NCBI GenBank assembly: GCA_022822375.1
Contig: JAJEBU010000099.1
Location: forward strand, 1 to 59,503
DNA from: Dehalococcoidia bacterium
Lineage (GTDB): Bacteria > Chloroflexota > Dehalococcoidia > Bin125
Direction: 5' to 3'
DNA length: 59,503 bases
Shown: in pieces, positions 21,835-28,161 of the stretch
How the letters are laid out: every line of letters begins with the position of its first letter
Position numbering within the stretch: the first letter of the stretch is position 1
Notes under the pieces: generated by a model
What the model was told of the DNA's origin: nothing
Seen by the model: only the letters and a program-made list of their open reading frames with translations
Databases searched by the model: none
Made by a program: the position numbers and the translations under genes

Positions 21835-23022
21835 CTATCCCCCGCGTGAACTGTCGACCGAGCGGTCCGGCTGATTGATCGGGATGTAACGCGGCCGATA
21901 GATGGCCACCCCGCGTCCGTTGCGGGCGCGGGTGCGCTCGTCCACGATCTGCGCGCCAATTCCCGCAATCCGCGACCAACCGAACAGCGTCGTGTAGTAG
22001 TCGGGATCGGTGAATCCCAACGCATTCACGAGACTGCCCGAAATCAGGTCCACATTCGGGTACGGATTCGACACTTTTGGGTTCTCGGACAGCACGCGGA
22101 TGCCAGCTTCACGGACCGCCTTGACGACCTTGAACCAGTGGTCGTCGGGGCAGAGTTCTTCGCCGACGCCCAGCTGGACCTTGGCGCGCGGGTCCTCCTG
22201 GCGCAGGACGGCGTGTCCGAACCCGAAGATCAAGCCACCGTTGGCCAGGCGCTCCTTGAGGACGGTGTAGGCCTCGTCCGGATTCTCGGTGTTGACCTCG
22301 TGCACCATCTTGAAGGCGTCCTGATTGGCCATCCCGTGACGCGGCCCGGCCAATGCGTTCATCCCCGATGCCATCGAGCGGTACATGTCGGCCAGGCCCG
22401 AAGCGACGGCGCGGCCAGTGAACGTCGAGAGATTGCCGCCACCGTGGTCGGCGTGCAGGTTGTAGTAGACGGACAGCAGCCGGGTCAGGGCCGCCTCGTC
22501 GCCGTCCGGCATGCCCAGCATGTGGACAAAGTTGTTCACGTAGCCGCGCGACGGCTCGGACGGGATCAGATCGCCCCAACCCTCGCGCAGACGGAAGATC
22601 GCGGCCAATGCCGTCGGAATCCGCGCGACGAGGTTGAGCGCATCTTCGTAGTAGTCCTCCGTCTTGCCCGTCATACCCAGAATCTGAATCGCGGCGCAGA
22701 ACAGATCCATCGGATGGCCCGACATCGGCATCGCGGCAATCGCGGACATCGTCTCGTCCGACACCTCTGAGCGCTCTGCGATGTCGTCGATGACGCCCTG
22801 CCGCTCCGCGTCCGAGGGCAGTTCCTTGTTGAAGAGCAGGTGAATGATGTCCTCAGCCTGCAGGAACGCCAACTCGGCAATCGGATAGCCCACGTAGGAG
22901 ACGCCCTCCTGCGGGTCGACATAGCTGGTCTCGCAAGTGCCGACGGGATACCCGCGCAGGCCGGTATCGAGATGGTCGTTGGTGATCGTGAACTCGATGG
23001 TCGGAATCTCAGACACTGGCAT
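21835..23022 (-). CDS. gltA: Citrate synthase
   Basis: Condenses acetyl-CoA and oxaloacetate in the TCA cycle. The 395-residue product carries the family His segments HADHGGGNLSTF, GPRHGMANQD and GFGHAVLRQEDPRA, and a C-terminal Arg-containing segment (NGRGVAIYRPRYIP). These motifs resemble the mitochondrial-type sequence more than the E. coli hexameric type. I chose the ATG at 23022 (MPVSEIPTIEFTITND) because the family sequence starts there and GGGGAAA precedes it; the frame is open 51 codons further upstream into the GreA-like gene. It lies between that gene and the oxidase cluster, all on one strand. Confidence 0.95.
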   Translation of the reverse strand: MPVSEIPTIEFTITNDHLDTGLRGYPVGTCETSYVDPQEGVSYVGYPIAELAFLQAEDIIHLLFNKELPSDAERQGVIDDIAERSEVSDETMSAIAAMPMSGHPMDLFCAAIQILGMTGKTEDYYEDALNLVARIPTALAAIFRLREGWGDLIPSEPSRGYVNNFVHMLGMPDGDEAALTRLLSVYYNLHADHGGGNLSTFTGRAVASGLADMYRSMASGMNALAGPRHGMANQDAFKMVHEVNTENPDEAYTVLKERLANGGLIFGFGHAVLRQEDPRAKVQLGVGEELCPDDHWFKVVKAVREAGIRVLSENPKVSNPYPNVDLISGSLVNALGFTDPDYYTTLFGWSRIAGIGAQIVDERTRARNGRGVAIYRPRYIPINQPDRSVDSSRGG

Positions 23023-23104: not shown

Positions 23105-24178
23105 CTACGCGTCCTGTTTCGCCTCAGTCGGCGGCGCGGCCGCCACCGAGACCAACTTGAACCGCTTGCGGCCACTCGGCGTGTCGATCTCGATGACGCG
23201 GTTGGCTTGCTGGTCGAGCAAGCCGCGACCGAGCGGGCTGTCGACCGAGATTCGCCGCTGCGCCGCGTTGGCTTGAGTGGTTCCGACCAGAGTGTACTCG
23301 TTGGCCTGTCCCTGCTCGGCGCCGTCCGCGTCGACGACCACGACGGTCACCAGGCTGCCAATCTGCGCGCGGCCCGTGTCGGCCGCTTCGCGCACGACCG
23401 CGCGGTCGATCTGATAGCGCAGTTCGTCAATCCGCGAGCTCACCCGCTCTTGTTGTTCGCGCGCTGCCTCGAGCGGGGCGTTCTCGCGGATGTCCTTGTC
23501 CTCGCGCGCCGCGGCGACGGCCTGGATCAGGTCCGGCATGCGCGACTCGGCGTCGCTCAGCTCACGCTTCAGATGGTCCAGACCCTCCGCCGTCATCTCG
23601 AACGTCTCGGCCTCCTCGTGCGTGAAGTTGCCTGTCGTGCGCACGCCGGCCGAGGATCGCTTGATCTTCAGGTGGTTGCCCAGATTCTGCTCGCACCACT
23701 CTCGTTCCTTCCAGCAATAGCGGAGGAACTCCTTGACCGGGCGCAACTTGGACTCGAGATCGGTCGTGTTGTCGCCCATGATCTGTTGGAACCGCTCGAT
23801 CCCGTTCGGGTTCAGTTCCACGATCGGCGTGGCGGGACCGACGTGCGAGAGGAAGCGGTTGATTGCCTGGCGCGCCGCCTCGTCGAGCTCAAACACGGTC
23901 CGCTTGGCCGGCGCGGATCGAGGCGAGGTCTTGCGATTCTTGCGCTTGGCCTCCCGCGCCTCTTCCCAGATGAAGTACTCGGTCACCGCCTGATCCAGCG
24001 TGACGGCGGACGCAGCCGCGCCGTTGCCGCCCTGCACGGAACGATCAGCAAGCGCCACCGATGATGGACGCTCGACGACGTCGCCCGCGACCACATCGAC
24101 ATCATCGCCGTCCTCGTCCACGATGTCCTCAACCGCGGTCTCGGCCTCATCCATTCGCGCATCGTCAGACAGTCCCAT
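23105..24178 (-). CDS. GreA-like transcription factor fused to an integrase-type SAM-like domain
   Basis: 357 residues. Residues 1-45 are strongly acidic. Residues about 58-170 look like the SAM-like N-terminal DNA-binding domain of tyrosine integrases (TLDQAVTEYFIWEEA, then FLSHVGPATPIVELNPNGIE and RPVKEFLRYCWKERE), without any catalytic domain. Residues about 190-345 are GreA: a coiled coil with conserved acidic tip D229 and E232 (REDKDIRENAP) and the C-terminal FKBP-like part (TLVGTTQANAAQRRISVDSP). The usual NAEY after the tip is NAPL. GGGAGG precedes the ATG. GreA rescues backtracked RNA polymerase; the fusion could add DNA or partner contact, which is inference. It begins the citrate synthase/oxidase run. 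Confidence 0.85.
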   Translation of the reverse strand: MGLSDDARMDEAETAVEDIVDEDGDDVDVVAGDVVERPSSVALADRSVQGGNGAAASAVTLDQAVTEYFIWEEAREAKRKNRKTSPRSAPAKRTVFELDEAARQAINRFLSHVGPATPIVELNPNGIERFQQIMGDNTTDLESKLRPVKEFLRYCWKEREWCEQNLGNHLKIKRSSAGVRTTGNFTHEEAETFEMTAEGLDHLKRELSDAESRMPDLIQAVAAAREDKDIRENAPLEAAREQQERVSSRIDELRYQIDRAVVREAADTGRAQIGSLVTVVVVDADGAEQGQANEYTLVGTTQANAAQRRISVDSPLGRGLLDQQANRVIEIDTPSGRKRFKLVSVAAAPPTEAKQDA

Positions 24179-24346
24179 GCGAGACCTCCCACTATGGTCG
24201 GAGTTGCCGCTGGTCTCGACGGCCTATGCCGCAGACACCCAAGCGCCGCGGAGCCCGTCTCGGCTCCGCCACCTCTTATCTTACTCCCTATCGAGCAGGA
24301 ATCTGTACCCAGGTCAGCATGTCGGAAGCTGGCAAGTCGGAATCTG

Positions 24347-25093
24347 ATGGACGAACGCCGTATCCAGCACGCCCTCGATGCCGCCGGCCTGGCCTATCTG
24401 GCAGAGCTCAACCCGCACATCGCCGCCCAGCTGGACACGTGGCTGCGGATGCTCTCCCGCTCCGAGCGGAACCTGACGGCGATCCGAGACGCCGAGGCCG
24501 CTCTCCACAAACATGTCGTCGAGCCGCTCGTTGGCCGCGACCAGCTGATCGCGGCCGATCTTCCCCTTCCCCACGGACCGATGATCGATATCGGCAGCGG
24601 CAACGGATCGCCCGGCTTGCCGATTGCGCTCTGTGAACCGACACGTCCCGCCGTGCTGCTCGACGCTCGAGCCGGCGCGGCGTCGTTTCTGAGCGACGTG
24701 ACAGCCGCGATCGGCGCGGAACAGATCAGCGTTCGCTGTGGCCGCGCCGAGGAGGCCGCACACCGTGAGCTGCGCGAGACCTTCGTCCTGGCGGTCAGCC
24801 GCGCCACCGCGCCGCCGCCGGCCGCGCTGGAGCTGACGCTGCCCTACCTGCAACTCGGAGGCGTTGCGGCGATCTGGACTGGGACGCTCTCGGCGGATGC
24901 CCTGCGCGTCTGCGCCGAGACGGCCGCGAGCCTCGGCGCGGTGCTGACGCCGATCGACTCCACCGGCACCGATCAGCCCGGCATCCTGGTCGCCACCAAA
25001 CAGCATCACACCGACGGGCAGTTTCCCCGCCGCTGGAAGCAGATTCGACGCGGGCCGCCGGCCCCGACCTTCCCAGACGCACGGAACCCGTAG
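24347..25093 (+). CDS. rsmG: 16S rRNA m7G527 methyltransferase
   Basis: RsmG (GidB) methylates G527 of 16S rRNA; its loss gives low-level streptomycin resistance. The 248-residue product has the family SAM-binding motif as MIDIGSGNGSPGLPIAL, the following acidic strand AVLLDARAGAASFL, and the segment VLAVSRATAPPPAALE. The usual DVGSGAGFPG is slightly changed (Asn and Ser). The ATG at 24347 begins the family-like helix DERRIQHALDAAGL; 51 upstream in-frame codons are not family-like. No strong ribosome binding site is seen. The 168 bases between it and the divergent GreA-like gene hold only weak AT-rich boxes such as TATCTT at 24277-24282. Confidence 0.88.
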   Translation: MDERRIQHALDAAGLAYLAELNPHIAAQLDTWLRMLSRSERNLTAIRDAEAALHKHVVEPLVGRDQLIAADLPLPHGPMIDIGSGNGSPGLPIALCEPTRPAVLLDARAGAASFLSDVTAAIGAEQISVRCGRAEEAAHRELRETFVLAVSRATAPPPAALELTLPYLQLGGVAAIWTGTLSADALRVCAETAASLGAVLTPIDSTGTDQPGILVATKQHHTDGQFPRRWKQIRRGPPAPTFPDARNP

Positions 25094-25102: not shown

Positions 25103-26575
25103 ATGTCCGCCGCCACTGACACTGCCCCCCGCATTGATCCATCGCGCTACCAGCGGAATCTGCGGGTCTACTACCTGTTCATGGGCTCCACGGGATTCAT
25201 GGTCTTCCTGCCCATCTGGATCATCTATCTGCTCAATCACCGCGGGCTGTCGCTGACCGAGGTCGGCGTCTTCGAATCGTTCTTCTTCCTCACCGTCATC
25301 CTCGGCGAGGTGCCGACGGGCGCCGTCGCCGATCGCTTCGGGCGCCGCATCTCACTCGCGCTGGGCGCAATCCTGTTCGCCGTCTCGATCGTCATCTTCG
25401 CGCAGGCCGATCACTTCGCCATCCTGCTCGGCTCGTACCTGGTCATGGGGCTCGCGATGACGCTCTACTCCGGAGCCTCAGAGGCGTTGCTCTACGACAC
25501 GCTGCGCGTGCTGGGACGCACCAGCGAGTACGAGCGGCACAGCGGACGCTCGCACGGCTTGTTCTGGTTGATGATGGTGCTCGCGACCCTCATCGGCGGA
25601 CCGCTCAGCTACGTGCTGGGCTATTCGGCAGCGATCACGATCTCCTGCGCATTCTTCCTCGCCGCCGCCGTCGCTGCGCTGCTCTTGCGCGAGCCGCCCC
25701 GACGCGAGGCTGACTTCCCCGTTGATCCGCTACACGCTCCGCCCGCCGGACTGCACACCGCGCCCGACACGGAAGGCACACAGCCTCCTCCGATCAAGGA
25801 GTCAAACGGCTTCCCGATCCTGAACGAGATGATGGAGGGCTTCCGCATCGTCTGGCGGATTCGGCCGGTCCGCTATCTCGTGCCGTTCGCCGCGGTATTG
25901 ATCGCGCTCTACGACATGCCGCGCTTCCTGACCCAGCCGTATGTCGCAGGGCACGGACTCGACCCGCTCGACAGCGCGGCCGACGGCTTCATCTGGTCAG
26001 CGTTGATGATCCCCGCCTATCTGGGCACGATGATCGGCATGCTCAGCGCTGAGTCGTTGATGAACCGCTTCGGACCGCGCCGCTCGTTTCCGCTGATCCT
26101 CATCTGGGGCGCCGTCTTCATGGTGCCGCTGCTGATCTGGAACCATCTGGGACTGCTCGGCGCGATCTTCATGATCTCGATCGGCCAGGCCGCCATTCGG
26201 CCCATCGCAACCGGATACATCAACCGCCGCATCACCTCCGATCAACGGGCGACCGTGCTGTCGATCTTCGCCCTCGTGGGCGGCGGCGCGATGAGCGTCA
26301 TCCTGCTCACGATCGTGCCCATCGCCGACGCCGTGTCCTTCTCCGCGGCCTTTGGACTCGACCTGATCGCCGCGCTCACGCTCGGCGTCGTGCTCTGGCT
26401 GCTCTGGCGCGCCGCGCACCGCCGTGACCAGGCGGAACGCATCCGCCGATGGTCGATGTCGATCCACAAGCCGCAGGCGCTCCACCGCCCAGCATCCAAC
26501 GGAGCGTCCGCAAACGGGACCGGGCAGACGTCGGGCGGCTCCACTGTGTACCGAAATGTGCAGAACACTGACTAA
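25103..26575 (+). CDS. MFS transporter (first of tandem pair)
   Basis: 490-residue major facilitator protein with about 12 membrane segments. The MFS motif between helices 2 and 3 is GAVADRFGRRISLALG. A long cytoplasmic loop (about 200-245) separates the halves. It lacks a Shine-Dalgarno sequence and has a TANNNT box six bases upstream. The downstream gene at 26701 is a paralogue with the same architecture and many identical stretches (for example PTGAVADRFGRR and IRPIATGYINRRI), so the pair arose by tandem duplication. Substrate unknown. Confidence 0.9.
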   Translation: MSAATDTAPRIDPSRYQRNLRVYYLFMGSTGFMVFLPIWIIYLLNHRGLSLTEVGVFESFFFLTVILGEVPTGAVADRFGRRISLALGAILFAVSIVIFAQADHFAILLGSYLVMGLAMTLYSGASEALLYDTLRVLGRTSEYERHSGRSHGLFWLMMVLATLIGGPLSYVLGYSAAITISCAFFLAAAVAALLLREPPRREADFPVDPLHAPPAGLHTAPDTEGTQPPPIKESNGFPILNEMMEGFRIVWRIRPVRYLVPFAAVLIALYDMPRFLTQPYVAGHGLDPLDSAADGFIWSALMIPAYLGTMIGMLSAESLMNRFGPRRSFPLILIWGAVFMVPLLIWNHLGLLGAIFMISIGQAAIRPIATGYINRRITSDQRATVLSIFALVGGGAMSVILLTIVPIADAVSFSAAFGLDLIAALTLGVVLWLLWRAAHRRDQAERIRRWSMSIHKPQALHRPASNGASANGTGQTSGGSTVYRNVQNTD

Positions 26576-26700
26576 CGACGACGTGATCGCGTCCCCCGTT
26601 TGACACGACCGCCCCGATCATCCCTACGATCTCTGCATCGCCCTCGTCAACTCCGCATGATCTTCACTCGCTCGACATACCGTCGCGATGGCATCGGCAC

Positions 26701-28161
26701 ATGATCCAGCCCGAACGCTTCGCCCGCAACATACCGATCTATTACCTCTTCCAGTTCGCGACGGGGTTCCTGATCTGGATCCCAATCTGGATCATCTTCC
26801 TGCAGGACGAGCGTGGCCTCACGCTGACGCAGGTCGGACTGATGGAGGCGATCTTCTGGATCGGCATGATGGTCTTCGAGGTGCCGACCGGCGCCGTCGC
26901 CGACCGGTTCGGGCGACGCAAGTCACTGGCCTTGGGCGGGTTCATGTTCACCGCTGGCACGATCATGTTCGTGCTCTCCGACGGCTTCGTCGGACTCGCG
27001 CTGAGCTACGTCGTGCTCGCCTTCTCGATGACCCTCTATTCCGGCTCCGGCCACGCGCTGTTGTTCGACAGCCTGCGCGTGTTGGGTCGCACCGGCGAGT
27101 ACGAGAAGCACATGGGCCGCGCCGAAGCGTTGATGACCGGCGCACTGCTCGCGTCCGGACTGCTCGGCGGTCCGATGGCCGGTCTGCTCGGCCTCGAGAC
27201 TGTCTTCCTGATCGGCGCGATCACGATGGGCGGCGCTGGATTCGTCGCGCTGCTGTTGCGCGAACCACCCCGCACTGAGGCCGAGTTCGGCGCAGCGTTT
27301 CCCGCCGATCCGCTGCACGGCGGTCCCGAGCCGCAGCCTGAGCCCATGCCCGGCGGCCTCGTCAACTATGTGCTCAGCGGCTTCCGTATCGTAGTGCGCC
27401 AACGCCCGATCCTGTGGGTGATCATGCTCGCCGGCATCGTCGCTGTCGCCTACGAGATGCCCAACTTCTTCGTCCAGCCCTTCCTGCGCAGCCACGACCT
27501 CGACCCGACCGGCGGCGTGATGAACGGCGTGGTCTGGAGCGCGCTCGTCGTGCCCGGCTTCGCCGGCATGTCGGCCGGATCGCTGCTCGCCGCGCCCCTC
27601 GTCGCGCGGGTCGGCGAGCGTCGCGCGCTGCCCGTGCTGATGTTCAGCGGCGTCCTGCTGTTCATCCCACTCTTGCTCTTCGACCACATCAGCATCATCT
27701 TGCCGATCGCCGTCCTCAGCGGCATTCACGCGGCCATCCGACCAATCGCCACGGGCTACATCAACCGACGCATTCGCTCCGACCAACGCGCAACCGTGCT
27801 GTCCATCTTCGAGTTGATGATGGCCGCGCAGATGGCGCTGATCGTGCCGCTCATCTCCGCCTCCGCCGACAGCATCGACTTCCGCTTCGCCTACGGACTC
27901 TCAGTCGGCGTCGTGCTCACCCTGGGCGTCGGATTCTGGCTCCTCTGGCGGCGCGCCCACCGTGGCGAGCAGGCGGACGCGCTGCGCCGCATCAGCATCC
28001 GCGCCAAGCCGCAAGCAGCAGCCGCCGTGCCGCTGGCCGCCGCAACCATGCCGTTCGTCCGCAACGGCGGCAAAGGGATGCCGGCCGTCTCCCCGCCGGC
28101 GCTGATCACCAGCGCGGACCGCCAAGAATCGGCGGTCGTCGAGACCGCCAAGCGGCCATAG
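26701..28161 (+). CDS. MFS transporter (second of tandem pair)
   Basis: 486-residue paralogue of the gene at 25103, with the motif GAVADRFGRRKSLALGG and the shared segment IRPIATGYINRRIRSDQRAT. About 12 membrane segments are visible. The ATG at 26701 aligns with family helix 1. A TACCGT box at 26678-26683 ends 17 bases upstream; no Shine-Dalgarno sequence is seen. The 125-base gap between the two genes has no hairpin. The C-terminal tail of about 60 residues is Ala/Pro-rich and differs from the first copy. Substrate unknown; drug or small-molecule efflux is a generic guess. Confidence 0.9.
   Translation: MIQPERFARNIPIYYLFQFATGFLIWIPIWIIFLQDERGLTLTQVGLMEAIFWIGMMVFEVPTGAVADRFGRRKSLALGGFMFTAGTIMFVLSDGFVGLALSYVVLAFSMTLYSGSGHALLFDSLRVLGRTGEYEKHMGRAEALMTGALLASGLLGGPMAGLLGLETVFLIGAITMGGAGFVALLLREPPRTEAEFGAAFPADPLHGGPEPQPEPMPGGLVNYVLSGFRIVVRQRPILWVIMLAGIVAVAYEMPNFFVQPFLRSHDLDPTGGVMNGVVWSALVVPGFAGMSAGSLLAAPLVARVGERRALPVLMFSGVLLFIPLLLFDHISIILPIAVLSGIHAAIRPIATGYINRRIRSDQRATVLSIFELMMAAQMALIVPLISASADSIDFRFAYGLSVGVVLTLGVGFWLLWRRAHRGEQADALRRISIRAKPQAAAAVPLAAATMPFVRNGGKGMPAVSPPALITSADRQESAVVETAKRP

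Follow-up and report, generated by a model that had tools for sequence, protein, structure and literature searches.

Few proteins of transcription are as uniform as the Gre factors, which commonly consist of about 158 residues folded into two domains. What should then be made of a GreA-like gene of 357 codons, and what might its additional N-terminal half do? The gene lies in a contig of a Dehalococcoidia bacterium (GenBank assembly GCA_022822375.1, contig JAJEBU010000099.1), of which the whole stretch of 59,503 nucleotides will be referred to as "the window". The original prediction, made from the letters of the DNA, had described a GreA fused to an integrase-type SAM-like domain, preceded by an acidic N-terminus and placed at the head of a run of respiratory genes. 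Its coordinates and protein length proved exact, and the strand, which it had left unstated, is the minus strand. The gene, its parts and its immediate surroundings are the following:

23105..24178, minus strand: fused core-binding-domain/GreA gene, 357 aa
24005..24178, minus strand: acidic N-terminal tail, residues 1-58, probably disordered (sequence, alignment, pLDDT)
23639..24004, minus strand: tyrosine-recombinase core-binding (SAM-like) domain of four helices, residues 59-180, as assigned from profiles and predicted structure
23603..23638, minus strand: flexible linker, residues 181-192 (pLDDT <50 for residues 178-189)
23393..23602, minus strand: Gre N-terminal coiled coil, residues 193-262 (PF03449, 1.2e-16; long helix pair predicted)
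23480..23500, minus strand: DKDIREN, the acidic catalytic tip (residues 227-233), in which D229 aligns with D41 and E232 with E44 of E. coli GreA
23144..23374, minus strand: Gre C-terminal FKBP-like domain, residues 269-345 (PF01272)
24184..24190, minus strand: ribosome-binding sequence GGGAGGT, with the ATG 5 nt downstream
21835..23022, minus strand: citrate synthase (PF00285, 1.7e-89), next gene downstream on the same strand after a gap of 82 bp, a setting particular to the family
24194..25093, plus strand: rsmG/gidB-like 16S rRNA methyltransferase (PF02527, 3.5e-20), divergent neighbour

The acidic N-terminus is indeed present, up to about residue 58. It is shared by the genus and family of the source organism and absent from most Dehalococcoidia in the alignment, and its predicted pLDDT is mostly below 50 over residues 16-55.

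The C-terminal half is a complete GreA with both acidic tip residues, as had been predicted. In Pfam searches of the window protein, GreA_GreB_N (PF03449) covers residues 195-262 (1.2e-16) and GreA_GreB (PF01272) residues 269-345 (2.3e-14), both above their own cut-offs, and both are matched in 59 of 59 A4 members; the E. coli GreA structure 1grj is matched at 7.9e-22. The coiled coil, the FKBP-like domain and the acidic D/E tip are thus common to E. coli GreA and the fused protein, whereas GreA and GreB lack the N-terminal core-binding domain, and the tip stands in a different context (DKD[FI][RK]ENAPL in the fused proteins, GDLKENAEY in GreA/GreB). The window protein stays below the NCBIfam greA equivalog cut-offs (best score 109 bits against 145; TIGR01462, 107 against 139). 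N-terminally extended GreA fusions are represented in NCBIfam by PRK06330 and PRK14720, which likewise place Gre at the C-terminal end of a larger protein; these models span 718 and 906 positions, respectively, and align to the window protein over the Gre part only (residue 162 or 193 onward).

An assembly or frame error merging two neighbouring genes would give the same appearance, and this candidate was ruled out. A single N-terminal domain sequence matches 45 of 61 relatives, and a profile built from 25 sequences matches 131 of 400 Chloroflexota genomes (54 of 57 Dehalococcoidia and 77 of 343 others). Among 70 loci from the profile search, 57 continue in frame into a downstream Gre domain, so that all 57 two-domain loci read through in one frame, and several fused loci lie on single-contig chromosomes. 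Recurrence of the architecture across genomes refutes an assembly error, and the rate of protein change agrees: the N-terminal domain has a dN of 0.040 and a dS of 0.827 (ratio 0.05) in a Dehalococcoides-like pair (G104 vs G077), whose Gre part shows a dN of 0.067 and a dS of 0.728, and a dN of 0.025 and a dS of 0.328 (ratio 0.08) between the window and G007. The N-terminal domain is under strong purifying selection, with ratios far below 1, and the chance that the fusion is an artefact is negligible. We therefore regard it as one real gene. The listing of fusion-bearing genomes proposed with the original prediction gives 54 of the 57 Dehalococcoidia genomes sampled, together with at least 34 of 343 Chloroflexota genomes outside the class. 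In a pattern scan of 84,980 species, the best 80 of 352 relatives are all named Chloroflexota or Dehalococcoidia.

The nature of the N-terminal domain (approximately residues 59-180) is less obvious from single sequences. Pfam searches of the window protein alone give no SAM-like match in this region; member by member, the best Phage_int_SAM hit is a weak one to Phage_int_SAM_4 (E 0.015-0.023); the PF02899 model recovers none of the fused genes in 14 genomes; and sequence and profile searches of the PDB return weak matches. An unrelated helical bundle that merely looks recombinase-like would fit these results. Profile-profile comparison speaks against such convergence: hhalign aligns the A5 profile of the domain with 14 Xer-type core-binding domains, gathered independently via PF02899, at 95.3% probability (E 2.4e-8, 86 columns, nearly the whole domain), and the A2 profile with the same domains at 96.5%, the Gre domain giving 0.1% and 0.2% as negative control. 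The genome-wide profile search points the same way, as 13 of its 70 loci lack a Gre domain and all 10 of those scanned are true tyrosine recombinases with the catalytic domain PF00589, nine of them also with Phage_int_SAM_1. Finally, structure prediction of the window protein places four main helices in the domain, most with pLDDT of about 93-96, and the domain folded alone reaches a pLDDT of 79.7 and a pTM of 0.71. In VIA, each of its 22 best structural rows is the core-binding domain of a recombinase or integrase (Z 11.8-4.9, with the lambda Int domain at 11.5), and the row after them scores 3.7. For a helical bundle such as this one, the highest Z falls short of the value of about 13 under which the tool advises caution, so the recombinase match rests on the top rows all belonging to one family; Foldseek, run on the isolated domain, gave weak E-values, the best being 0.64. 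Taken together, convergence is very improbable, and the identification as a tyrosine recombinase core-binding domain, drawn from profiles and a predicted structure, is supported. The SAM-like assignment of the original prediction is hence borne out by three agreeing approaches, including the structure prediction that it had recommended. The profile search that it had also recommended succeeds between profiles and fails with Pfam on the single sequence; since Pfam misses the domain there, taking the absence of a SAM-like match literally as a refutation would mislead.

XerC/D, lambda Int and Tn1549 Int share with this domain the four helices, their order and spacing, and a basic tail. The fused protein differs from tyrosine recombinases in being joined to Gre and in its helix 2 contact residues, and it lacks the catalytic domain: PF00589 has no match in the window protein, nor does it occur among the families listed for 26 members and for 59 members. 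As a separate observation, the fused domain of family f80 (G089, G132, G170, G208, G268) ends in an NPATGLR-type sequence, which resembles the Xer consensus (NP) more than the Dehalococcoidia domain does, and this version may lie closer to the ancestral state.

Does the fused protein act alongside a conventional Gre factor, or in place of one? Of the 54 fused Dehalococcoidia genomes, 28 show no Gre-type match besides the fused gene, among them complete Dehalococcoides-like chromosomes. Two further genomes of the class combine it with a frame of more than 1300 aa as the only other Gre-type match, 24 have both fused and free-standing Gre, and one of the 57 (G436) has a free-standing Gre only. 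Neither kind was matched in G228 and G259, class members reported as 95% complete. The window's genome belongs to the 24 and additionally contains a long frame with TPR-like repeats (about 1300 aa), in which a third GreA_GreB C-terminal match was found (G000:C140:5587-5802, L003). This frame resembles, and may be one of, the TPR-GreA/B-C-PIN conflict proteins outlined in PMC8195603; the combination of TPR, GreA/B-C and PIN does not occur in the window protein.

The catalytic tip separates the two kinds of Gre. Both D and E are kept in 84 of 84 fused genomes examined and in 180 of 180 fused locus entries (duplicates included). A free-standing copy with intact D/E was found in 7 of 57 fused genomes vs 25 of 30 non-fused ones (Fisher p 6e-11, a value that ignores shared ancestry). 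Broken down, the seven comprise one of the 24 class genomes with both genes (G398) and six of 33 fused genomes outside the class, three of these six having an odd tip. The free-standing copies of G279 and G426 align poorly and were scored as not intact; the non-fused genomes without an intact pair are G067 (cut by a contig end), G062 and G070 (D/D), G069 (E/E) and G098 (E/G). G436 enters neither count, and further Gre copies of G136, G219, G112, G092 and G258, some in multi-domain frames, are left out. In 27 of 56 free-standing rows from fused genomes the change is E to D alone, and such tips may still be active. The window's genome reads SPGARDEGEG where the tip of its free-standing Gre should be; a second greA, the presence of which had been raised as a check, thus exists, but it is not a normal one, having lost the catalytic tip. 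As all fused copies keep D/E and free-standing ones from the same genomes rarely do, the fused protein is probably, judging from sequence, the working transcript-cleavage factor of the bacteria that carry it.

Gfh1 and Rv3788 are Gre paralogues that inhibit RNA polymerase. The free-standing Dehalococcoidia paralogues can be likened to them as Gre folds without the standard D/E tip. The parallel has a limit, since Gfh1 retains acidic tip residues and yet does not cleave, according to PMC4598747, whereas the Dehalococcoidia copies have replaced theirs.

We propose, with a probability of roughly 0.55, that the product of the gene is a Gre factor competent for cleavage, with a co-opted tyrosine recombinase core-binding domain at its N-terminus, that it is the main or only such factor in the class, and that the added domain probably tethers it to elongation complexes, most likely via nearby DNA. 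In Gre structures the coiled coil has the N-terminus at its base, so that a domain fused there should stay outside the channel; carried on its flexible linker, the core-binding domain would sit outside the channel mouth. By analogy with known Gre factors, whose coiled coil enters the secondary channel of RNA polymerase and whose acidic tip assists the cleavage of backtracked RNA (PMC4598747), the Gre half would enter that channel and its D/E tip would trigger cleavage. In Dehalococcoidia, cleavage by Gre factors would then depend mainly or solely on the fused protein, and the free-standing paralogues, their tips mostly lost, would have disappeared or turned to another role. Outside the channel, the core-binding domain would probably hold the factor on elongation complexes, the likeliest means being contact with nearby DNA, as its fold suggests.

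The fold of the domain, its positive charge and the precedent of the ALOG proteins suggest a nucleic-acid tether. In these plant regulators a recombinase core-binding domain was recruited as the DNA-binding domain (PMC3537659), and it serves in transcription control, as proposed here; ALOG proteins differ in being eukaryotic, in having an inserted zinc ribbon and in not being joined to a secondary-channel factor. The residues that matter in Xer are a reason for caution. The conserved T and Y of Xer helix 2 (T28 and Y32 of A6) are replaced in Dehalococcoidia by a conserved Q-Q-E in the hhalign alignment, so any DNA contact would differ from that of Xer, and a different set of residues is near-invariant (Q46, E47, F51, R53, W54, K99 and N107 in A5 numbering). 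The domain could bind protein instead of DNA: having lost DNA binding, the fold would dock on RNA polymerase to raise affinity, or on some lineage-specific surface, be it of RNA polymerase, of another elongation factor or of the ribosome. Such a dock would agree with the changed helix 2 residues and the different near-invariant set, and also with the retention of the domain in small genomes that have no Gre match besides the fused factor, since this retention suits a general role and not a choice of sites. On the opposite side stand the net charge of the domain (positive in every one of 51 sequences, with a median of +6), the basic tail after its last helix, and the DNA-binding character of the fold family. 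We consider docking on protein a serious rival with a sizeable share of the probability, although short of an even chance.

In recombinases, the core-binding domain contributes to the recognition of sites. The fused protein might accordingly be a local regulator that works at defined DNA sequences, comparable to a specific transcription factor; the ALOG precedent (PMC3537659) and the setting of the gene in the window's family would favour this. Within that family, all 18 loci have rsmG on one side of the fused gene, and the five with enough flank all have CoxB and a 399-aa ORF on the opposite side. The head of a respiratory run, as originally described, is thus a fixed place in the source organism's own family; elsewhere the neighbours differ, and the 399-aa ORF and CoxB are found in none of 12 other long loci, so the respiratory setting is local and does not define the function. 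Across 94 loci of the phylum, an FAD-dependent oxidoreductase-like ORF lies directly upstream of the fused greA in 42 (including L213:5750-6943), often overlapping it or with a gap below 60 bp, and an M50 site-2-type peptidase is a neighbour in 18, from Dehalococcoides- and Dehalogenimonas-like genomes (flanking M50 peptidases at L213:3750-4892, L216:3687-4805 and L216:5804-6916). Comparison of neighbours at these 94 loci gave no conserved gene partner pointing to a pathway across the class. Besides this varying neighbourhood, the fused protein is the only Gre-type protein in many genomes and must there serve all genes, which makes site-specific action improbable. Beyond rsmG, the window also contains two similar tandem membrane transporter-like ORFs (490 and 486 aa, 25103-28161), with three matches in a row in the relatives L217 and L218.

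Regarding the origin of the fused factor, a Gre tree of 189 rows, from which 11 short or odd locus ids had been dropped by hand, needs one change to separate 83 fused from 105 free-standing rows (SH-aLRT 95). A tree without the tip columns (150 rows, after removal of 39 rows of close relatives) requires two changes and leaves the deep fork open, so a single origin is likely and not proven. One old fusion, followed by vertical descent and by decay or loss of the canonical copy, is the simplest account. A more far-reaching scenario is that an ancient Chloroflexota Gre gained the recombinase domain, probably once, and became a DNA-anchored factor reading backtracking both from the RNA 3' end and from the DNA flank of RNA polymerase; within Dehalococcoidia, all transcript cleavage would then have passed to it, the canonical Gre losing its catalytic tip or vanishing. 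We put this forward as a tentative and rather doubtful extension.

A class-wide Gre form that carries a recombinase domain, and that alone keeps the catalytic tip, departs from the uniform two-domain Gre, and it offers a clean case in which to ask whether DNA tethering of a cleavage factor is possible. No description of the fusion was found in the open-licence full-text PMC papers searched. The "GreA" annotation in organisms such as Dehalococcoides covers only about half of the protein. In the acetylome of D. mccartyi CBDB1, GreA (cbdbA743) is listed as acetylated at K17 (PMC7918482). Among all Met starts of the related ORF in G077, only the internal Met116 puts a lysine at position 17; the published cbdbA743 annotation therefore probably omits the N-terminal domain, as this homologue suggests for the annotated GreA start in CBDB1.
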